A stretch of 64,000 nt of DNA, from NCBI GenBank assembly GCA_025934695.1, contig JAICWS010000005.1:62001-126000 (forward strand). The letters run 5' to 3'. Below are positions 14,741-48,680 of the stretch, piece after piece (the stretch's first letter is position 1; the number at the start of each line of letters is the position of its first letter). Source of the stretch: Alphaproteobacteria bacterium (lineage in GTDB: Bacteria > Pseudomonadota > Alphaproteobacteria > Micavibrionales > UBA2020). The notes under the pieces were generated by a model, which was given only the letters and a program-made list of their open reading frames with translations, was not told the origin of the DNA and ran no database searches. The translations under genes and the position numbers were made by a program.

Positions 14741-16483
14741 TCAGGCGGATTCCCTCATCAAATTGCCGTAGAGCCGCGCATAGGCGCCGTTCTGCGCCAG
14801 CAGCGAGGAATGGTTTCCGCTTTCGATCAGCTTCCCATGCGAGAGCACATAAATGGCGTCGGCGTTCATGATGGTCGACAGGCGGTGCGCCACGACGATG
14901 GTCGTGCGGCCCTTCTGGAGCCGATCGAGCGCCGCCTGCACGAGGCGTTCCGAGGTCGTATCGAGGGCGGAGGTCGCCTCGTCCAGCAGCAGGATTGGCG
15001 CGTTGCGCAGGATGGCGCGCGCGATGGAGACGCGCTGGCGCTGCCCGCCCGAGAGCTTCACGCCGTTTTCGCCCACACGCGTGTCATAGCCTTCCGGCAG
15101 GTCCCGGATGAATTCATGCGCGGCCGCGAGTTTCGCGGCTTCCACGATCTGCTCTTCCGTCGCGCCCGGCGTGCCATAGGCGATGTTCTCGCGGATCGTA
15201 TCGGAGAAGATTGCGACTTCCTGGCTCACCACCGCCATGCTGCCGCGCAGGCTTTTCAGCGTCACGTCGCGGATATCCTGCCCGTCGATTTTGATCGCGC
15301 CGCCCGTTACATCGTAAAAACGCGGGATGAGATTGAGGATCGTCGATTTGCCGGCACCGGACTCGCCCACCAGCGCCACGGTCTTGCCTGCCGGCGCGAT
15401 GAAGCTGACCCCGCGCAGCGCGTCGCTGCCGTCAGCATAGGTGAAGGACACGTTCTCGATGCTGACGATAGGGCTTTGCACACGTAGTTCGCCTGCGCCC
15501 GGCTTATCCTGAATGGCGGGCGGGCGGTCGATCAGCTGGAAAAAGCGGTCCAACGCGGCGAAGCCCATCTGGTTGATGCCGTTGAGGCGCGCGAGGCGCT
15601 TCATCGGCTCGAAGGCGAGCAGGAAGGCGGCGATGAAGGAAAACAGCTTGCCCGCGGTGCTATGGCCCTGGATGACCTGCATGCCGCCATAGACGATGAT
15701 CGTCACGATGGCCATGCCGCTCAGCATCTCGGCCAGCGGCGTCACGACGGTCGATACGCGGAAAGCGCGGGTCTGAAGCTTGTAGATCTGCTCGACCGCG
15801 CCGTTGATGCGCTGCTTCTCGAATTCCTCCATGCCATAGGCTTTCACATGGCGGTTGCCCTGGAAGGCCTGGCCCAGCATGCTCGTGAGCTCGCCCATCT
15901 TGACCTGCGTGCTCGTCGATACGCGGCGTAGCTTCTTGCCCATGCGCATGACGGCGAAGGCGGCGGCCGGAAAGACGAAGATCGCGATCAGCGCCAGCTT
16001 CCAGTCCTGGTAGAACATGACACCGATCAGGAAGGTTACGGTAAAAAAGTTTTTGCCGAGGCCGGTCAGACTTTCGGTCAGCGCCGCGCGCACCAGCGCC
16101 GTGTCGGCCAGGAAGCGCGACATCAATTCCCCGCTCTGCTGGCTGTGGAAGAACGCAAGATCCGACTGCACAAGGTGCGCGAACATATTGCGCTGCATGT
16201 CGCTGATGACGCGCAGGCTTAAGTTGTTCATCATGACGCCCTGGCCATAGGTGGCGAAGCCGCGGACGGTGAAAACGGTAAAAACGACTTCGGCCACCGG
16301 CCAGAGCTCCTGGGGGTTTTTGTCCCCGAAAACCTTGTCGATGACAGGTTCCATAAACTTGGCCATAGCCCCCGTCGAGGCGGCGGCGAGCAGCATGAGG
16401 ACCAATGCGCTGAATAAACCCGCCAGATGGGGCCGGATATAGGTCCGCCACATGCGCAGGGCCAAGGGCAGCGACCCTGTCAT
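14741..16483 (-). CDS. ABC exporter, MsbA-like (lipid flippase family)
   Basis: A half-transporter with fused membrane and ATPase domains: six predicted membrane helices in about residues 15-305, and the nucleotide-binding domain from about 335, with Walker A GESGAGKST (373-381), signature KLSGGQRQRVSIARA, Walker B ILLLDEATSALD and H-loop VVAHRLST. The 580-residue length and overall pattern match MsbA, which flips lipid A-core across the inner membrane; related exporters of other hydrophobic compounds cannot be excluded. I chose the ATG at 16483 (MTGSLPLALRMWRTY); a TTG 13 codons upstream is in frame. First gene of a likely five-gene minus-strand operon. Confidence 0.85.
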   Translation of the reverse strand: MTGSLPLALRMWRTYIRPHLAGLFSALVLMLLAAASTGAMAKFMEPVIDKVFGDKNPQELWPVAEVVFTVFTVRGFATYGQGVMMNNLSLRVISDMQRNMFAHLVQSDLAFFHSQQSGELMSRFLADTALVRAALTESLTGLGKNFFTVTFLIGVMFYQDWKLALIAIFVFPAAAFAVMRMGKKLRRVSTSTQVKMGELTSMLGQAFQGNRHVKAYGMEEFEKQRINGAVEQIYKLQTRAFRVSTVVTPLAEMLSGMAIVTIIVYGGMQVIQGHSTAGKLFSFIAAFLLAFEPMKRLARLNGINQMGFAALDRFFQLIDRPPAIQDKPGAGELRVQSPIVSIENVSFTYADGSDALRGVSFIAPAGKTVALVGESGAGKSTILNLIPRFYDVTGGAIKIDGQDIRDVTLKSLRGSMAVVSQEVAIFSDTIRENIAYGTPGATEEQIVEAAKLAAAHEFIRDLPEGYDTRVGENGVKLSGGQRQRVSIARAILRNAPILLLDEATSALDTTSERLVQAALDRLQKGRTTIVVAHRLSTIMNADAIYVLSHGKLIESGNHSSLLAQNGAYARLYGNLMRESA

Positions 16484-16643
16484 ATGCGCCGCTTTTTTCT
16501 CGTTATTCCGGGGGGCTGCCAAACGATTTCTCTGTTACTTGTTAATACTTTAGAAAGTCATGCTATATTAACATGAATGGGCGATATTAGTCTCTAACCC
16601 ATGCTCTGTAAACAATAAACATAATACAAAAAGACGGGGTTTC

Positions 16644-41491: not shown

Positions 41492-41566
41492 TGGTGCTGT
41501 TGAAGCGGATTGAACGCTCGACCTCCCCCTTACCAAGGGGGTGCTCTACCACTGAGCTACAACAGC
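41492..41566 (-). tRNA. tRNA-Thr (GGT anticodon)
   Basis: The minus strand folds as a cloverleaf: acceptor GCTGTTG with CAACAGC, D-arm GCTC-AGTGGTA-GAGC, anticodon arm CCCCC-TTGGTAA-GGGGG with anticodon GGT, variable region AGGTC, and T-arm GAGCG-TTCAATC-CGCTT. Discriminator A and CCA are encoded. A short CTCGC-TTC-GCGAG hairpin follows. Confidence 0.96.
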
Positions 41567-41650
41567 ATACTCTTTAACATCAATGGGTTAGGCTTGCGCC
41601 ACCGGCCCCAAGGGATCGCTGGATGTATGGATAAGGTAAAATCCCCTGTC

Positions 41651-41720
41651 TTGTCAACAAATCTCCTTTCCATTAAGAAAGTCAATGACCCGCTCCAAAT
41701 TACAGAAAGACCAGCCATGA
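41651..41720 (+). promoter_or_regulatory. Promoter and short leader ORF in front of nitronate-monooxygenase-like gene 1
   Basis: TTGTCA (41651-41656), 17-base spacer, TAAGAA (41674-41679), then AGTCA and an ATG at 41685. That ATG opens a 12-codon frame (MTRSKLQKDQP, stop at 41718-41720) whose TGA overlaps the ATG of the main gene (ATGA at 41717-41720). Transcription would start at the leader ATG, so the main gene may depend on translation of this leader. The five-base gap from -10 to ATG is the same as at 43768 and 45021. Confidence 0.45.
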
Positions 41721-42775
41721 CGCCCGATTCCGGCGCTCCGCCGTCCCCGAAAACGACTGCCGACACCCTGAAATCGAAAACATCGCTGCCCGTCATCGTG
41801 GCGCCGATGTTCCTCGTCTCAAATCCCGACATGGCGCTGGCCTCATGCAAGGAAGGGCTGGTCGGCAGTTTTCCCGCCCTGAACCAGTTGACGAGCCAAG
41901 GCTTCGAAGACTGGCTCATTAAAATGAATGATGGCATCGAGAAACTGAAGAAAGATAATCCGGGCCAGACCATCGGCCCTTATGCCGTCAACCTGATCGT
42001 CCACAAGACCAATCCGCGTCTCGAGGAAGACCTGGCGCTTTGCATCAAGCACAAGGTGCCGGTCGTCATCACCTCGCTGGGCGCAGTGCCGGACCTCGTC
42101 AAGGCCGTGCATGCCTACGGCGGCATCGTGCTGCATGACGTGACGAACATCGAGCATGCCAAGAAAGCGGCGGCGGCCGGCGTCGATGGGTTGATTGCTG
42201 TGTCCGCCGGTGCTGGCGGCCATGCGGGCACGCGTAATCCAGTTTCACTCGTCAATGAGATCCGCGAATTCTTCGACGGTGTCGTCGTGCTGGCGGGTTG
42301 CCTGTCCAACGGACATGACGTACTGAGCGCAGAGGTCATGGGCGCGGATTTTGCCTATATGGGCACTCGCTTCGTCGCAACGAAAGAATCATCGGCGGAT
42401 CCGGCCTATAAACAAATGATCGTCGATGCCTCGGCCACCGACGTGGTCTATACGTCGGCGGTGAGCGGCATTCCTGCGAACTTCCTGAAGGACAGCATGG
42501 CGAAAGCCGGCTTCGACGTCGAAAAGCTCAAAAAGGAAGGCGCCGCCGCCGGCAAACTGAAGCCAATGAACGCTGACGGCGAAGAGGCCAAGGCCTGGAA
42601 AACCGTCTGGTCGGCAGGCCAGGGCGTCAGCAATATCCATGACATCCCTTCGGTCGAAGATCTCGCCAAGCGTCTCGAGACCGAATATGCGGAGGCGAAG
42701 GAAGAACTGGCGAAAAAGCTCGGCATCGCCCCCGCGAAGCCGAAAGCCGCCGCGCCGAAAGCGCCGAAGCCGTAA
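41717..42775 (+). CDS. Nitronate monooxygenase-like FMN protein, paralogue 1
   Basis: A 352-residue TIM-barrel flavoprotein of the nitronate monooxygenase / 2-nitropropane dioxygenase family, which oxidises nitroalkanes (nitronates) using FMN. The core contains LPVIVAPMFLVSNPDMALA (about 23-41), VPVVITSLGAVPDL, GGHAGTRNP and VVLAGCLSNGHDVLSAEVMGADFAYMGTRFVATKES, the FMN phosphate region. The Lys/Pro-rich tail is non-conserved. The start at ATG 41717 is preceded by AGAAAGA and overlaps a short leader frame. One of three paralogues in 4.4 kb. Confidence 0.88.
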   Translation: MTPDSGAPPSPKTTADTLKSKTSLPVIVAPMFLVSNPDMALASCKEGLVGSFPALNQLTSQGFEDWLIKMNDGIEKLKKDNPGQTIGPYAVNLIVHKTNPRLEEDLALCIKHKVPVVITSLGAVPDLVKAVHAYGGIVLHDVTNIEHAKKAAAAGVDGLIAVSAGAGGHAGTRNPVSLVNEIREFFDGVVVLAGCLSNGHDVLSAEVMGADFAYMGTRFVATKESSADPAYKQMIVDASATDVVYTSAVSGIPANFLKDSMAKAGFDVEKLKKEGAAAGKLKPMNADGEEAKAWKTVWSAGQGVSNIHDIPSVEDLAKRLETEYAEAKEELAKKLGIAPAKPKAAAPKAPKP

Positions 42776-42783
42776 GAAACACG

Positions 42784-42904
42784 CGTAACCCCGTCGAAGG
42801 CCGGGGTCTCTGCACTCGCAAAATAAATTGGCGGACATCGTCACAAACGATATCCGCCATTTTTGTTGATATATCCAAGACCCCCGGCTTTCGCCGGGAT
42901 TACG
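42784..42904. repeat. Paired palindromic repeat element (GTAACCCCGG family), copy C
   Basis: Outer arms CGTAACCCCGTCGAAGGCCGGGGTCT and AGACCCCCGGCTTTCGCCGGG plus ATTACG flank an inner stem TGGCGGACATCGT / ACGATATCCGCCA with one mismatch. The inner part aligns with copy A base for base over most of its length. It lies between converging genes. Confidence 0.85.
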
Positions 42905-42912
42905 AAAGTGTT

Positions 42913-43626
42913 TTACCTGCGATCGCCCATCAGGCTGATCAGCATATTGAACAGGTTGATGAAGTTCAGGTACATGCGCAGCGCGCCGGTGAGGGCCATC
43001 TGGTCGTTATTGCCGCCGTATTGATAGCTCTCCTTGATGTACTGGGTATCCCAGGCGGCAAGCCCGGTGAAGATGACGACGCCCATGATCGACACGGCCC
43101 ACTGGAGGCCTGCCGAATGGAAGAACATGTTGAAGAGCGAGGCGAAGAAGATGCCCATAAAGCCCATCATCATGAACGATCCCATCTTCGTGAGGTCGCG
43201 CTTCGTCGTATAGCCGTAGAGGCTGGTCGCGGCGAAGGTCGCGGCGGTGATGAAAAAGACCCGCGCGATGCTCTGCGCCGTGAAGACGAGGAAGATCGAG
43301 CCCATGGAGAGGCCCATCAGCGCCGAGAACAGCGCGAACATTCGCGTGGCTTCCCCTGCCTCCATGCGCGACAGGCGCTGGGGCGTGAGACCGAACCACA
43401 GAAAGGCGAGCGGCGCGAAGGCCACTACATAGAACAAGGGCGTGCCGAAGATCGCGTGCGCGAGAGCGGGCACCGAAGCGACGCCCCAGGCGACGAGACC
43501 GGTGATACCAAGACCGATGGTCATGATGTTATAGACCTTGCGCATATGCGCCTGCAGGCCGGCGTCGATATCGCTGCCATAGGCCGCGCGATTGACGGAC
43601 TGGTTTTCAAGCGGATCGAAGGACAT
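42913..43626 (-). CDS. Bax inhibitor-1 / YccA family membrane protein
   Basis: A 237-residue protein with about seven hydrophobic segments. ALMGLSMGSIFLVF, SLYGYTTKRDLTKMGSFMMMG and the C-terminal FTGLAAWDTQYIKESY ... LYLNFINLFNMLISL-like end are typical of the bacterial BI-1/YbhL group, with conserved acidic residues in the last helices that may form a pH-sensitive cation leak. Some members modulate membrane protease activity. It lies between two nitronate-monooxygenase-like genes but on the opposite strand, so no operon link. Confidence 0.92.
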   Translation of the reverse strand: MSFDPLENQSVNRAAYGSDIDAGLQAHMRKVYNIMTIGLGITGLVAWGVASVPALAHAIFGTPLFYVVAFAPLAFLWFGLTPQRLSRMEAGEATRMFALFSALMGLSMGSIFLVFTAQSIARVFFITAATFAATSLYGYTTKRDLTKMGSFMMMGFMGIFFASLFNMFFHSAGLQWAVSIMGVVIFTGLAAWDTQYIKESYQYGGNNDQMALTGALRMYLNFINLFNMLISLMGDRR

Positions 43627-43733
43627 TTCTTGTTTTTCCTTTCAAAGCTATTGAATTCATTGCTTTATACGCAGGAGTTTAGGCGATGGATGGGTGGGGA
43701 GTCACTAAATAAAAGACAAGGTTTTCCAAGCTC

Positions 43734-43762
43734 TTGACCGAACCCTGCGCCACCGCTACCGT
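43734..43762 (+). promoter_or_regulatory. Promoter of nitronate-monooxygenase-like gene 2 (probable leaderless transcript)
   Basis: TTGACC (43734-43739), 17-base spacer, TACCGT (43757-43762), then GCATT and ATG at 43768. With normal sigma-70 spacing the transcript starts on the start codon. No Shine-Dalgarno is present. Confidence 0.6.
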
Positions 43763-43767
43763 GCATT

Positions 43768-44817
43768 ATGCCCAATCCTCCTAAAGATATAGCCGCGGAA
43801 CTCAAAGGCGCAACCTCGCTGCCCGTCATCGTCGCGCCGATGTTCCTTGTGTCCAACGCGGATCTCGTCCTGGCCTCCTGCAAGGAAGGGCTAGTCGGCA
43901 GCATCCCCGCGGGCGCGTCGTGGACCGGCGCCGCCTTCGAACAGCTGCTTAAGGATCTTAATGATGGCATCGACAAGCTCAAAGCCGCCGACCCTGCCGC
44001 GAAGGTCGGCCCGTATGCCGTCAACCTGACGTTCAAAAGTATGAACAAGCGCCTCGATGCCGATATCGACCTTTGCGTGAAGTACAAAGTGCCCATCGTC
44101 CTGGCGTCCCACGAAGCGACGCAGGAACAGATCGACAAGATTCACGCTTATGGCGGCCTCGTCCTGCATGATGCGGCGACCATCGAACAGGCGAACAAGG
44201 CGATCGCCGCGGGCGCGGACGGCATCATCGCCATCGGCGCGGGCGCCGGTGGACAGGCGGGCACGATGAACCCCTTCGCGCTCGTGAACGGCATCCGCGA
44301 AGTATTTGACGGGCCGATCATCCTGGCGGGCTGCATCAATACGGGCCAGGATATTCTCGCCGCGCAGGCGATGGGCGCCGATATGGTTGTCATGGGCACG
44401 CGCTTTATCGCGACGGAGGAATCGAACGCAGAAACCGATTACAAGAACATGATCGTCGGCGCGCAATCGTCCGACATCATCTACACCTCCGCCATCTCCG
44501 GCGCGCCCGGCAATTTCATCCGCCAGAGCCTCGAAGGCTGCGGCTATGACGTCGAGCAGTTGAAGAAAGAGGGTGCGGGCGCCCCCAGAATTCCGCCGCC
44601 GCCGGGACAGGAATCCCGCGCCTGGAAATATGCCTGGTCCGCAGGCCAGGGCGTAGGCGGCATCCACGACATTCCAACCGCCGCCGAACTCGCCGACCGG
44701 CTGAAGGCAGAGCACGCCGCCGCGAAGGCGGAATTTGCGGTGAAGCTAGGGATTGTTCCCCCGCCCAAACCGCCCGCACCGGGCGTCTTCCGGTCACCAA
44801 AACCACCCTCGCCATAA
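43768..44817 (+). CDS. Nitronate monooxygenase-like FMN protein, paralogue 2
   Basis: A 349-residue paralogue of the flanking proteins. LPVIVAPMFLVSNADLVLASCKEGLVG is nearly identical to paralogue 1 (read as two parts, LPVIVAPMFLVSN and LASCKEGLVGS). The FMN region IILAGCINTGQDILAAQAMG and ADMVVMGTRFIATEES is conserved, as is GAGAGGQAGTMNP. C-terminal Pro-rich tail. The start is fixed by the promoter, which leaves only five bases before the ATG. It probably acts on nitronates or a related propionate-type nitro compound; the family also has unproven members. Confidence 0.88.
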   Translation: MPNPPKDIAAELKGATSLPVIVAPMFLVSNADLVLASCKEGLVGSIPAGASWTGAAFEQLLKDLNDGIDKLKAADPAAKVGPYAVNLTFKSMNKRLDADIDLCVKYKVPIVLASHEATQEQIDKIHAYGGLVLHDAATIEQANKAIAAGADGIIAIGAGAGGQAGTMNPFALVNGIREVFDGPIILAGCINTGQDILAAQAMGADMVVMGTRFIATEESNAETDYKNMIVGAQSSDIIYTSAISGAPGNFIRQSLEGCGYDVEQLKKEGAGAPRIPPPPGQESRAWKYAWSAGQGVGGIHDIPTAAELADRLKAEHAAAKAEFAVKLGIVPPPKPPAPGVFRSPKPPSP

Positions 44818-44934
44818 GTGCTACCCCGGCGAAGGCCGGGGTCCACGGACTTGATCGGTCGGAGGAAACTGGCAGGCGCCGGTTTTTCTGAAACGGCGCA
44901 GTCCGTGGACCCCGGCTTTCGCCGGGGTGGCACT
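44817..44934. repeat. Paired palindromic repeat element (GTAACCCCGG family), copy D
   Basis: Left arm AGTGCTACCCCGGCGAAGG and right arm CCGGGGTGGCACT pair almost perfectly over their whole length, and the pairing continues inward (GTCCACGGACT with AGTCCGTGGAC). The sequence of the ends differs from copies A and E, but differs in both arms together. It overlaps the last base of the paralogue 2 stop codon and lies between tandem genes. Confidence 0.85.
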
Positions 44935-44985
44935 ATTGGGTAAATGTTTGTCTTCATTAAATTTTCCAGATATTTCCCGAATCTA

Positions 44986-45015
44986 TTGACTATTCATCGG
45001 CGTTTTCGCTACTGT
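44986..45015 (+). promoter_or_regulatory. Promoter of nitronate-monooxygenase-like gene 3 (probable leaderless transcript)
   Basis: TTGACT (44986-44991), 18-base spacer, TACTGT (45010-45015), then ATCTT and ATG at 45021. No Shine-Dalgarno. Same geometry as the promoter at 43734. Confidence 0.6.
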
Positions 45016-45020
45016 ATCTT

Positions 45021-46088
45021 ATGAAAAAGCAAAACCCCATCACCGAAAAGCTCAAAGATCAACTCTCCCTGCCCCTCTTCGTGGCGCCGCTGTTCCTGAA
45101 TTCGACCCCGGAACTGGTACTGGCCTGCGTGAAGGAAGGCTTCATGCCGGGCCTGCCCGCCTATGGCGTTTTCACCAGTGAAGAATGGGATCACTGGCTG
45201 ACAGAAGTTGACGAGGGCATTGCGAAACTGAAAGCAGAAGATCCGACCCGCAAGATCGCCCCCTATGCCGCCAACCTGATTTTCAAGGAAAATAACCAGT
45301 TCCTCGGCCCCGACCTCGACCTCTGCGTGAAGCACAAGGTGCCGATCATTCTCGCCTCCGCCACGCCATCGAAGGAGCAGATCGACAAGATCCATTCCTA
45401 CGGCGGCATCGTGTTCTACGACGTCAAGACTCTCGACGAAGCGAAGCGCGCGATGGAAGTCGGCGCCGACGGCATGATCGCCGTCACCGCGGGCGCCGGG
45501 GGCCAAGGGACCACCAAGAATCCGATTTCCTTTGTGGGCGAGATCCGCCAGTTCTTCGACGGACCGCTCGTGCTGGCCGGCTGTCTGTCGACGGGCCACG
45601 ATATTCTTGCGGCGCAAACCATCGGCGCGGATTTCGCGACCATGGGCACCCGCTTCATCGCAACCAGGGAAGCGCGCGCGGAAGAGGGCTACAAGCAGAT
45701 GGTCGCGCATTCGACCTCGGAGAATATCGTTTATACGACCGCCTTCACCGCCGAACCCGCGAACTTCATCGACGGCAGTATCACCGCCTCCGGCTATGAT
45801 GCCGACAAGGCGCGCAAGGAAGGCATCACGGCCCAGCGCGTCAAGCCGCCGCCGGGAGAGAAATCGAAATCCTGGGTCAAAATCTGGGCCGCCGGACAGG
45901 GCGTGGGCAATATCCACGACGTGCTGCCGGTGCAGGCTCTGGCCGAGCGCCTCAAGCGCGAATATGCCGACGCGAAACAGGAAATGGCGGAGCGGCTGGG
46001 TTTTGCGTTCAACACCTGCGCCAATTGCGCGCCCGCGAACGATACGCTGCCCGCACCCGCTGCCGCAAAGTCAGCGCCGAAGGTTTAG
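45021..46088 (+). CDS. Nitronate monooxygenase-like FMN protein, paralogue 3
   Basis: A 355-residue paralogue: LPLFVAPLFLNSTPELVLAC replaces the LPVIVAPMFLVSN of the other two, and GAGGQGTTKNP and LVLAGCLSTGHDILAAQTIG ... MGTRFIATREA are conserved. It is the most divergent of the three in its N-terminal strand, hinting at a changed substrate. A C-terminal Cys pair (NTCANCAP) is not seen in the other two. Start codon placed by the promoter five bases upstream. Ends before a palindromic terminator-like repeat. Confidence 0.87.
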   Translation: MKKQNPITEKLKDQLSLPLFVAPLFLNSTPELVLACVKEGFMPGLPAYGVFTSEEWDHWLTEVDEGIAKLKAEDPTRKIAPYAANLIFKENNQFLGPDLDLCVKHKVPIILASATPSKEQIDKIHSYGGIVFYDVKTLDEAKRAMEVGADGMIAVTAGAGGQGTTKNPISFVGEIRQFFDGPLVLAGCLSTGHDILAAQTIGADFATMGTRFIATREARAEEGYKQMVAHSTSENIVYTTAFTAEPANFIDGSITASGYDADKARKEGITAQRVKPPPGEKSKSWVKIWAAGQGVGNIHDVLPVQALAERLKREYADAKQEMAERLGFAFNTCANCAPANDTLPAPAAAKSAPKV

Positions 46089-46106: not shown

Positions 46107-46134
46107 CGTAACCCCGACTTCCGCCGGGGTTACG
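46107..46134. repeat. Single GTAACCCCG palindrome (family 1), probably a terminator
   Basis: CGTAACCCCGACTTCCGCCGGGG plus TTACG forms one nearly perfect hairpin between converging genes. It represents half of the paired elements seen elsewhere. Confidence 0.75.
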
Positions 46135-46155: not shown

Positions 46156-47331
46156 TTACGCCGCCGGAAAGACCTCGGTGTTCGAGCCGGGGAGTTCGTA
46201 GAAGCTGTGCGGGCCATTGAGGGACGGGTTCTTGTGATAGGTGCCTGTAATCTGGTTATGAATGGCCGAGGTGTAATCCGTGCCGTCCTGCGCCTCGTGG
46301 ATGCCGTAGCTTGCCACGATGGGTCCGCTGTCGGAAATGATGTTGTCGATGATAAGGGTATTGGTCGTGTGGAAGGTCGTGCCTGAAACGCTGTCCTTGA
46401 CGGATTCAAGACGTATTTCCTCATAAGCGTGGTTGCCCGCGCGGGAGTCGTTGGTCAGTGTCGAATTCTCCAGCTCGCTGCCCGAACTGCCGCGGAAGCG
46501 CACGCCCCGGTCCATATTGTCGTGGATATTCACGCCGTTGATCAGCACGTTGTTGGCGAGATCGACCTGGATGCCGTCTTCGCCGTTGCTGTAGAACTGG
46601 CCCCCGGTCACCGTAATGTTATGCGTGAGGGGAATATTATCCGAACCGCGCTGGATCATAAGGCCATTACTGCCGTTGCCGTACGAGATGTCGTTCGAAA
46701 GCTCCGTATTCTGCGAATCCGTGACCACGTTGAACCCGTGACGGCCGTTGTCATAGGCGACGTTATTGTCCACATGCCCGTCGATCTGGAAGTCCATCGT
46801 GAAGCCGTCGAGTCCGTTGCCATGGCTGACGCAGTTGGTGATCGACAGGTTGGTCGTCTCCTCGTGCGGGTCGAAGCCGTAGCCCGAGCAGTTCTTTATC
46901 TCGACGTGATCGAGCGTGATGTTCGTATCGGTGCCCGGCCCGCCCGGCGTCACGCCGTTGAACCAGCCATCGGTCTTGCCTGTCGTGTTCGCCCGGTTGC
47001 CGTCGATGGTGAGGTCATGCATGCCGATGTCGTGGTTCTGCACGCCCGACTGGTCGCGGAAAATGCCCGTCACCGGATGGCTCCAGCCGTTGATAAGCTT
47101 GACGGTCGTGCTGCCCATCCCGTCGCCGAAGACGGTGATGTTGTCGTAGAGCATGATGGCGCCCTTGGACGATGACGATTGCCCATGCACGATATAGGTG
47201 CCCGTGGGGATATAAACCTCGCCGCCGCCTGCTGCGTGGGCCGCGTTGACTGCCGCCTGGATTGCGTTCGTATCGTCGGCGACGCCATCGCCCTTCGCGC
47301 CGTAATTCTTCACATTGTAAATCGTCGCCAT
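46156..47331 (-). CDS. AlgE-type mannuronan C5-epimerase, single A-module (parallel beta-helix)
   Basis: A 391-residue right-handed parallel beta-helix protein that matches the catalytic A-module of Azotobacter AlgE epimerases along its whole length, from YNVKNYGAKGDGVADDT at the start through DLTIDGNRANTTGKTDGWFN, SGYGFDPHEETTNL, NVAYDNGRHGFNVV and SNGLMIQRGSDN. These enzymes convert beta-D-mannuronate to alpha-L-guluronate in alginate. The four catalytic residues remembered from AlgE4 (Y149, D152, H154, D178) align with Y151, D154, H156 and D180. Unlike AlgE proteins it has no C-terminal calcium-binding R-modules, and no signal peptide is visible, so export is unexplained. ATG 47331 has AGGAG upstream. 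No alginate biosynthesis genes are in the window. Confidence 0.88.
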   Translation of the reverse strand: MATIYNVKNYGAKGDGVADDTNAIQAAVNAAHAAGGGEVYIPTGTYIVHGQSSSSKGAIMLYDNITVFGDGMGSTTVKLINGWSHPVTGIFRDQSGVQNHDIGMHDLTIDGNRANTTGKTDGWFNGVTPGGPGTDTNITLDHVEIKNCSGYGFDPHEETTNLSITNCVSHGNGLDGFTMDFQIDGHVDNNVAYDNGRHGFNVVTDSQNTELSNDISYGNGSNGLMIQRGSDNIPLTHNITVTGGQFYSNGEDGIQVDLANNVLINGVNIHDNMDRGVRFRGSSGSELENSTLTNDSRAGNHAYEEIRLESVKDSVSGTTFHTTNTLIIDNIISDSGPIVASYGIHEAQDGTDYTSAIHNQITGTYHKNPSLNGPHSFYELPGSNTEVFPAA

Positions 47332-47465
47332 GTGCCGCTCCTGTTCCGTTGCGCTGCCCTGCCCTGCCGGCCTTTTACGGGCCGCGACTCCCTGACCCAA
47401 CGGCACGATGCGTCCGCGGTTCCGGAAATGGGGTTTCAAGGAATGAAGGGCCCAACACCCACACA

Positions 47466-47493
47466 ACCGTCACCCCGGCGAAGACCGGGGTGA
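47466..47493. repeat. Single CGTCACCCCGG palindrome (family 1)
   Basis: CGTCACCCCGGCGAAGACCGGGG followed by TGACG forms one hairpin. It lies between the epimerase start and the end of the next minus-strand gene, in a 197-base gap that shows nothing else clear. Confidence 0.7.
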
Positions 47494-47528: not shown

Positions 47529-47846
47529 CTATTCGGGTTTGTGAGAGGTGGGCTTGCGGCGGGGGAACGGCTTCTTCGCGGTAACCTTCTTCGCCGCCGG
47601 TTTGCGCTTCGGCTTTTCGGCGGCGTCGTTCAGTTCCTTTTTGATCGCGCGTTTGCGCGCAGGTTTTTTGGCAGGTTCTTCAACTTTTGGAGCGGGCGCG
47701 ACGGTCGCAGCGGTGGGTCGGTCATCCTCGACTGCGGCGGACGGATTGACCGGCGGCGCAGATGCCGGCACAGGTTCTTCATGCGTCTTGGGCCGCGCGT
47801 GGCCGGCGATCACCAGATATTTATGCATCCAGTCGTTTTCGCTCAT
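47529..47846 (-). CDS. Basic Lys/Ala/Pro-rich protein, histone H1-like tail
   Basis: A 105-residue protein: a short ordered start (MSENDWMHKYLVIAGHARPK) and then a long low-complexity tail rich in Lys, Ala and Pro (KKPARKRAIKKELND, KRKPAAKKVTAKKPFPRRK) like bacterial histone-H1-type DNA-binding tails. It probably binds nucleic acid non-specifically. Start at ATG 47846 has AGAGG at good distance; an in-frame ATG 8 codons upstream is possible. Confidence 0.6.
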   Translation of the reverse strand: MSENDWMHKYLVIAGHARPKTHEEPVPASAPPVNPSAAVEDDRPTAATVAPAPKVEEPAKKPARKRAIKKELNDAAEKPKRKPAAKKVTAKKPFPRRKPTSHKPE

Positions 47847-47991
47847 GAAGCGCCTCTTCTGCTGTGACATCAGCCTAACATCCCCAGCCTAGCCATGTCA
47901 AGTTTATGGAAATAAGTTATTTCAGCCAGTTAGCTGTGGATAAGTCCCGTCCTGCTTGACCCTTTCGAGGCCTGCGCTTTATTTTTCGGAT

Positions 47992-48126
47992 ATGGGCCAG
48001 CACACAAAATCGACCACACCCCCGAAGCGGAAGCAGAAGAGCGCCGACAACCTGCGCCAGAACCTGCTCAAGCGCAAGGAACAGGCCCGCGCACGCAGCG
48101 CCCAACAGGAAACGGAGAAGAAATAA
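47992..48126 (+). CDS. Very small basic protein (44 aa) directly upstream of dcd
   Basis: A 44-residue, Lys/Arg/Gln-rich, probably helical protein ([20 protein letters not shown], then [19 protein letters not shown]). Its stop codon overlaps the dcd start by one base (TAATG), so the two are translationally coupled. Short basic frames before dcd seem familiar from other alphaproteobacteria, but I cannot name the family. An unlikely chance frame, given coupling and composition. Confidence 0.55.
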
Positions 48127-48680
48127 TGTCCATCATGCCCGACAGCTGGATCCGCGAGCAGGCGCTCGAACACGGCATGATCAAGCCCTTCGAGGAACGC
48201 CTCAAGCGCGAGGGCGTGATTTCCTACGGCCTGTCCTCTTACGGCTACGATTGCCGCCTCTCCGACGAATTCATGATCTTCACGAATGTCGACAATGCCA
48301 TCGTCGACCCGAAGGCCTTCAACCCGGCCAGCTTCGTGACGCGCAAGACCGACGTCTGCATCATCCCGCCCAATTCCTTCGTGCTGTGCCGCACGGTTGA
48401 AACCTTCAAGGTGCCCCGCGACGTGCTCGTCGTCTGCCTGGGCAAAAGCACCTATGCGCGCTGCGGCCTCATCGTCAACGTGACGCCGCTCGAGCCGGAA
48501 TGGGAAGGCCAGGTCACGCTGGAAATCTCGAACACCACGCCGCTGCCCGCCAAGGTCTATGCCAATGAAGGCATCGCGCAATTCCTGTTCTTCAAGGGCG
48601 AAAGCGTCTGCGAAGTCTCTTACGCCGACCGCGCCGGCAAGTACCAGAACCAGAAGGGCGTCACCCTGCCGAAAATGTGA
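48126..48680 (+). CDS. dcd: dCTP deaminase
   Basis: Converts dCTP to dUTP in thymidylate synthesis. The 184-residue protein matches the Dcd family: [17 protein letters not shown] near residue 40, [26 protein letters not shown] (read as KSTYARCG and [11 protein letters not shown]), catalytic Glu in [11 protein letters not shown] and the C-terminal GIAQFLFF ... [14 protein letters not shown]. Coupled to the small basic gene upstream. Confidence 0.96.

Follow-up and report, generated by a model that had tools for sequence, protein, structure and literature searches.

A putative AlgE-type epimerase consisting of an A-module alone, in a genome with an alginate region and two larger paralogues

AlgE enzymes are composed of one or two A-modules and 1 to 7 R-modules, according to passages of PMC8824271, PMC7385640 and PMC12269086. 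The gene considered here encodes a single A-module with nothing after it, which raises the questions of whether the gene is complete, whether its product could still act as an epimerase and on what substrate, and how a protein of this form arose. It is located in a stretch of 64,000 nucleotides (hereafter the window; C6:62001-126000) of a genome of 4.13 Mb in 7 contigs.

The gene (P0001; 46156..47331, minus strand) encodes an AlgE-type mannuronan C-5-epimerase A-module of 391 aa, identified by PDB matching, AlphaFold2 and Foldseek. According to the ORF list and its translation, the frame runs from an ATG at 47329-47331 to a stop at 46156-46158, and a ribosome-binding site, AGGAG (47338..47342, minus strand), can be read directly 6 bases 5' of the ATG. 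None of 2000 codon-position-preserving shuffles of the ORF was free of stops (0/2000), and the 391-aa ORF is therefore not due to chance. The convergent neighbour, a FabK/nitronate-monooxygenase-like gene recognized by profile and ORF list as the third of three paralogues (45021..46088, plus strand), ends at 46088, only 67 bases from the epimerase stop, and there is thus no room for an R-module lost to a frameshift. Truncation of the gene by a frameshift or by the assembly is ruled out by the same gap. The GC3 of the gene is 0.82, and those of two paralogues in the same genome are 0.79 and 0.78. The gene is real and intact, and its architecture is that of an A-module only.

An end-to-end alignment with the catalytic module of AlgE enzymes had been claimed in the preliminary description of this locus and is borne out. 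The best PDB match of the protein is the AlgE6 A-module (5lw3, E 1.2e-105, query residues 5-376), followed by AlgE4 (2pyg, E 2e-103, query residues 5-377). AlphaFold2, run on a 36-sequence alignment, and Foldseek give a predicted right-handed beta-helix A-module of approximately 385 aa at full length, with a mean pLDDT of 93.8, a pTM of 0.92, and TM-scores to 2pyg, 2pyh and 5lw3 of 0.92-0.94 (query) and 0.96-0.97 (target). In the alignment, the catalytic motif Y151-G-F-D154-P-H156-E157 (46861..46881, minus strand) agrees with the motif YG(F/I)DPH(D/E) described in a passage of PMC8824271, and the catalytic Asp180, D178 in AlgE numbering, is encoded at 46792..46794 (minus strand). The four catalytic positions named previously, Y151, D154, H156 and D180 (Tyr149, Asp152, His154 and Asp178), are all present and recur without change in 35/35 aligned A-modules from elsewhere and in both paralogues, and E157 is also identical in all 35 named A-modules aligned; these counts leave out four more distant relatives from the order, which differ there. 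The window A-module shares 49-55% identity with the 35 named modules, most of which are from Pseudomonas. The protein thus resembles the A. vinelandii AlgE enzymes (AlgE4, 2pyg/2pyh; AlgE6, 5lw3) over the whole A-module, in sequence, predicted fold and the catalytic Y/D/H/D. It also shares the beta-helix and a weak profile similarity with AlgG (NF038177; 17.1 bits, E 0.0017) but is far under the 700-bit cut-off. An identity as AlgG was rejected, and a separate gene of the genome (C5:220929) is the AlgG candidate, at 397.1 bits and likewise under 700 bits.

Residues that discriminate epimerases from the bifunctional lyase AlgE7 are given in passages of PMC8824271: epimerases conserve K117, F122, G148 and L172, whereas AlgE7 has E117, Y122, R148 and K172, among which R148 is the most important for lyase activity. 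Applied to the alignment, this rule places the window protein with the A. vinelandii epimerases at all four positions, which are occupied by K119, F124, G150 and L174. An AlgE7-type bifunctional lyase was rejected on these residues, and the shift of the family to lyase, which had been named earlier as the case that would refute an epimerase, is not supported.

The pattern in which M and G residues are written may be another matter. In A. vinelandii, positions 235 and 307 are both Tyr in the enzymes that add G beside G, as stated in a passage of PMC7385640. In the PDB alignment, position 307 is F307 in AlgE4 and Y307 in AlgE6, and the corresponding residue of the window protein is Val311 (46399..46401, minus strand), the role of this position being taken from the same passage. 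Tyr is found at this position in 33/35 and Phe in 2/35 of the named modules, and Tyr in both paralogues. The equivalent of position 235 is His237, at a variable site with Tyr in 4/35 of the others. The lack of Tyr at both positions tied to G-block formation counts against the reading, favoured below, of the protein as a working epimerase. With His237 and Val311, the M/G pattern of the product may differ from that of its relatives.

Unlike the A. vinelandii AlgE enzymes, the window protein has no R-module, carries Val in place of Tyr/Phe at 307 and shows no visible export signal. A motif search found no RTX nonapeptide in its 391 aa, and an N-module is absent. No signal peptide is visible at the ATG start. 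An in-frame TTG extension is possible up to 47466, and a signal peptide hidden in it was rejected, as the added stretch has no hydrophobic segment. The absence of an R-module and of a visible signal peptide, as first described, is thus upheld. In contrast, the accompanying statement that AlgE enzymes need R-modules does not hold for catalysis: in passages of PMC7385640 and PMC4444821, R-modules raise activity and add calcium supply and binding, and A-modules alone epimerize.

The exporter given as missing in the preliminary description has candidates elsewhere in the genome. The ABC transporter in the window (14741-16522) is MsbA-like (576.8 bits, just under the 602-bit cut-off) and was rejected as a type I exporter. 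Of the 47 genome matches to the PrtD model, the three best were typed together with the one in the window, and they are an HlyB-type ATPase (C7:119494, 1020.6 bits) and two LssB-type ATPases (C2:912343, 862.9 bits; C3:1239901, 901.4 bits), all over NCBIfam type I cut-offs. The search of the rest of the genome that had been suggested revealed three or more ATPases for type I secretion. Structure prediction of the C-terminus and a search for a type I signal had been suggested as well. The prediction gave a tail of low confidence, in which the last 13 residues and the stop (46156..46197, minus strand) include the lowest values of the model (mean pLDDT 70 for residues 381-390 and 59 for residue 391), but by eye the C-terminus has no recognizable type I tail and no RTX. 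The protein ends in ...NTEVFPAA, and the two paralogues end in ...GGYLVA and ...SGNFVV. That the tail might be a remnant of an N-module start (GSNTE, resembling GQSNAE) was rejected as chance-level similarity, the score being reached by 3261/5000 and 3003/5000 peptide shuffles and, at the DNA level, by 2016/5000 codon shuffles.

Both paralogues are much longer. The first (C5:236509) shares 66% identity with the window A-module in an open frame of 1158 aa, and the second (C3:728944) shares 65% in an open frame of 1624 aa. In each, the A-module is followed by a PsmE-type N-module-like domain and then by Big_9/cadherin-like and RTX repeats, a plan like that of Pseudomonas syringae PsmE (epimerase and O-acetylhydrolase), from which the window protein differs in having neither the N-module (SGNH) nor RTX. 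The PsmE module plan and the removal of acetyl groups by the N-module ahead of epimerization are described in passages of PMC4444821. The second domain of the paralogues is 34-37% identical to the matching domain of proteins from P. congelans and P. cerasi, which are taken for PsmE orthologues and were compared in place of PsmE; on sequence grounds the domain is taken for the PsmE N-module, and Pfam named no SGNH family in either paralogue at 1e-4. The C3 epimerase (L006:9354-14159) has five cadherin/Big_9-like repeats 5' of the RTX tail, and the C5 copy has one.

No alginate gene is present in the ORF list of the window at 40-54 kb, but a search of the rest of the genome detected an alginate region at about 211-241 kb of C5 (G000:C5:211027-241100). 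The region contains the C5 epimerase, the AlgG candidate described above, candidates for AlgD (a nucleotide-sugar dehydrogenase, over cut-off), Alg8 (GT2), Alg44 (a PilZ protein with an EmrA-like stretch), AlgK (a TPR protein), AlgL (a PF05426 alginate lyase), AlgI (an ORF that partly resembles DltB, MBOAT) and AlgC (a phosphomannomutase-like protein, under cut-offs), an alginate-export porin (PF13372), an RTX-bearing alginate lyase of PF08787 type, found by profile match, and AlgX/AlgJ-like ORFs that were named by position and reading and have no NCBIfam match. Adjoining the C5 epimerase, a divergent gene encodes an RTX-only protein of 1112 aa (L004:15741-19079) with 12 Pfam RTX stretches and no named catalytic domain. 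Among 16 genomes searched, AlgG was matched in two, this genome and G019, and in none of the five other genomes of the genus.

A cell-surface or exogenous polymer had been proposed as the target of the enzyme, but no unknown polymer is needed in a genome with an alginate region and two full-length epimerases. Because of this region and these two secreted-type paralogues, the cell's own alginate is the likely substrate of the window protein, which the genome context thereby explains. A PF07940 search returned two proteins in the genome, and the one examined is heparin-sulfate lyase-like and far under the cut-off, a result that weighs against intracellular alginate catabolism but is not conclusive.

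The origin of the gene was addressed with a tree of 42 rows, in which the window protein was placed among its two paralogues, four relatives from the order and 35 of 80 named loci. These 35 were picked by hand, and near-duplicates and one odd locus were left out. The window, C5 and C3 A-modules form one clade (support 100/99), within which the window and C5 modules group together (93/87). By its sequence, the window protein is kin to the C5 and C3 paralogues, and the single clade makes a duplication in this lineage the most likely origin of the gene, which would have kept the A-module alone and lost the N-module, the RTX repeats and the C-terminal export signal. A phage or plasmid origin was rejected: the phage collection gave one weak tail-spike match over half of the protein, the plasmid collection gave no match, and among the best 80 of 233 confirmed matches in viral contigs the top one was 34% identical over residues 5-225, with the others weaker or shorter.

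The epimerase locus is variable between genomes of the genus. On the upstream side, it is followed by an ORF of 113 aa (47529..47870, minus strand), which has no NCBIfam match and to which an ORF in the corresponding position of G001, a genome of the genus, is related (40% identity over 103 residues), and by the dCTP deaminase gene dcd (48126..48680, plus strand, by profile), a synteny anchor shared with G001 and G002 of the genus. G001 keeps, in order, two FabK/NMO-like genes flanking a Bax-inhibitor-1-like gene, the 113-aa ORF, dcd, ankyrin, DHH and murA, and in place of the third NMO-like gene and the epimerase it has other ORFs, two of which read as Sel1-like; in G002, dcd and an NMO-like gene are about 750 bases apart. 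None of the four loci compared gave an epimerase match. Within the window, the three FabK/nitronate-monooxygenase-like paralogues surround the Bax-inhibitor-1-like gene at 41510-46088. A palindromic repeat lies downstream of the epimerase gene (ACCCCGACTTCCGCCGGGGT, 46111..46130) and another upstream (ACCCCGGCGAAGACCGGGGT, 47472..47491); 20-base palindromes like ACCCCGGCGAAGGCCGGGGT occur in four intergenic copies in all, at 44823-44842, 44909-44928, 46111-46130 and 47472-47491. Their presence on both sides of the gene is no proof of a mobile element.

Selection on the window copy was assessed from conserved positions and from substitution rates. The copy keeps 83 of the 86 columns that are invariant in 37 other A-modules (the 35 named ones, C5 and C3, with the four distant order relatives left out), and of the columns invariant in the 35 named modules (n=94) it keeps 86, C5 87 and C3 88. 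Changes at outgroup-conserved columns number 25 against 22 in C5 (sign test 0.77) and 28 against 19 in C3 (sign test 0.24), so that in this relative-rate test the window copy is no faster than its paralogues, the differences not being significant. Across the sequence, it evolves faster than they do. Its tip branch in the 42-row tree is 0.51, against 0.12 and 0.17 for the paralogues; dN is 0.30 from the window copy to each paralogue and 0.19 between C5 and C3, and the corresponding dS values are 1.26 and 1.15, and 1.57. A three-branch split puts dN/dS near 0.5 on the window branch and at about 0.1 on the others, with dS near saturation and hence unreliable. Identity to the paralogues is 70-78% before residue 240 and 46-51% after it. 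The departures from invariant or near-invariant residues are D81N, S205D, a one-residue gap at 314, K257D, Y280R and Y311V, and at 257 and 280 the paralogues also depart from the consensus. The pattern is read as relaxed but real constraint, and decay is not evident in the sequence.

No other A-only relative was found among the best 80 of 212 named relatives or the matches listed in five genome searches, in which all ORFs were at least 481 aa. The best 80 of the 212 relatives confirmed in the named-genome scan are mostly from Pseudomonas, and each of them carries two or more RTX motifs and has an ORF no shorter than 719 aa. In the order, 8/142 genomes match at 1e-30, including this one, and the eight places in the seven others are open frames of 735-848 aa. 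In the class, only this genome matches at 1e-30 (1/385), and in the phylum 4/398 match at 1e-25, this one and three more whose frames measure 1550-1653 aa. In the family around G871, where up to four candidates per genome were scored, 42/398 genomes match at 71 places, the shortest open frames being 481, 485 and 588 aa; RTX was found at 6/6 of the places inspected, which included those of 481, 485 and 597 aa, and the others were judged by length. Weak matches, accepted up to E 1e-3, lie in open frames of at least 549 aa. Same-genus (n=5) and same-family (n=12) genomes gave no match to the protein, and none of the genomes searched yielded an A-only orthologue. The Azotobacter chroococcum enzyme AcAlgE3 is, together with the 481- and 485-aa proteins, the shortest AlgE-type kin encountered; these have one A-module and a reduced tail. 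Passages of PMC7385640 describe AcAlgE3 as a bifunctional lyase with one R-module and an A-module short of 47 residues. The 481- and 485-aa proteins, which we guess to be its orthologues, carry RTX motifs, unlike the window protein.

The literature yielded no report of a natural A-only AlgE, with limited coverage of subscription papers. Within the searches made, this would be the first AlgE-type epimerase known to occur naturally with nothing but its A-module, although not a new kind of system: the AlgE family is known, and the natural A-module-only form, beside an alginate region and two N-module epimerases, is new. A-modules without R-modules have been studied as constructs, and a natural one would represent a compact epimerase, making the role of R-modules in the cell testable within one organism.

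We give about an even chance to the reading that the protein is an intact, A-module-only paralogue of the PsmE-like epimerases of the genome, derived by duplication, which would work as a calcium-dependent epimerase and act once outside the cell. It would be a mannuronan C-5-epimerase and not a lyase: the Y151/H156 pair would remove a proton at C-5 and add one back, turning M residues of the cell's own alginate into G. AlgE enzymes are calcium-dependent in the passages behind PMC8824271, PMC4444821 and PMC7385640, and because of this need the protein would be idle in the low-calcium cytosol. It would become active only after reaching extracellular alginate, where Val311 should change the M/G pattern written. 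The simplest assumption on release is that part of the population lyses, an unrecognized type I signal being the bolder route. A more ambitious version, in which a small, tail-less and calcium-gated epimerase exits through a non-RTX route or by programmed lysis and writes a distinct M/G pattern onto alginate already treated by the RTX epimerases of the same cell, seems unlikely.

It is also somewhat unlikely that the gene is a relic, a truncated duplicate that is translated and drifting without a selected function. Its faster evolution than either paralogue, the missing export tail, the restriction of the A-only form to this genome among the relatives searched and the variable locus, with other ORFs in G001 and a gap of about 750 bases in G002, would all suit a relic. 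Yet dS to both paralogues exceeds 1 and no stop has appeared in 391 codons, which none of the shuffles reproduced; the ribosome-binding site is intact, GC3 is close to that of the paralogues, 83 of 86 invariant columns are kept, and the relative-rate test is not significant. The conserved active site points to a product in use, which would suit export without a leader or RTX tail, whether by a type I system through a short non-RTX C-terminal signal or in company with another RTX protein, for which the RTX-only neighbour of the C5 epimerase is a possible carrier; the result would be a small diffusing epimerase alongside the large ones with RTX tails. HasA is a type I secretion substrate without RTX repeats. 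The one HlyB-type and two LssB-type ATPases could serve such export, and residues 381-391, the least confident in the model, would suit a free tail. Nevertheless, we consider this route improbable, since the C-terminus bears no recognizable signal and is unlike the ends of the paralogues, and the ABC transporter of the window is MsbA-like. Least probable by far is a change of reaction in the A-only copy to that of a lyase or another uronan enzyme. AlgE7-type bifunctional enzymes do exist in the family (passages of PMC8824271), and Val311, Asp205 and Arg280 are unusual, but all four epimerase-type residues are kept.

Outside this lineage, four relatives in the order (L009, L010, L011 and L012, from G077, G088, G082 and G046) have AlgE-like A-modules with the catalytic motif R-I-A-F-N-P-H-E, in which Tyr149 is replaced by Ile and Asp152 by Asn, and position 148 is Arg in 4/4 aligned. 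Judging from these residues, the four modules may be lyases, may be inactive like AlgY, or may have a different activity.
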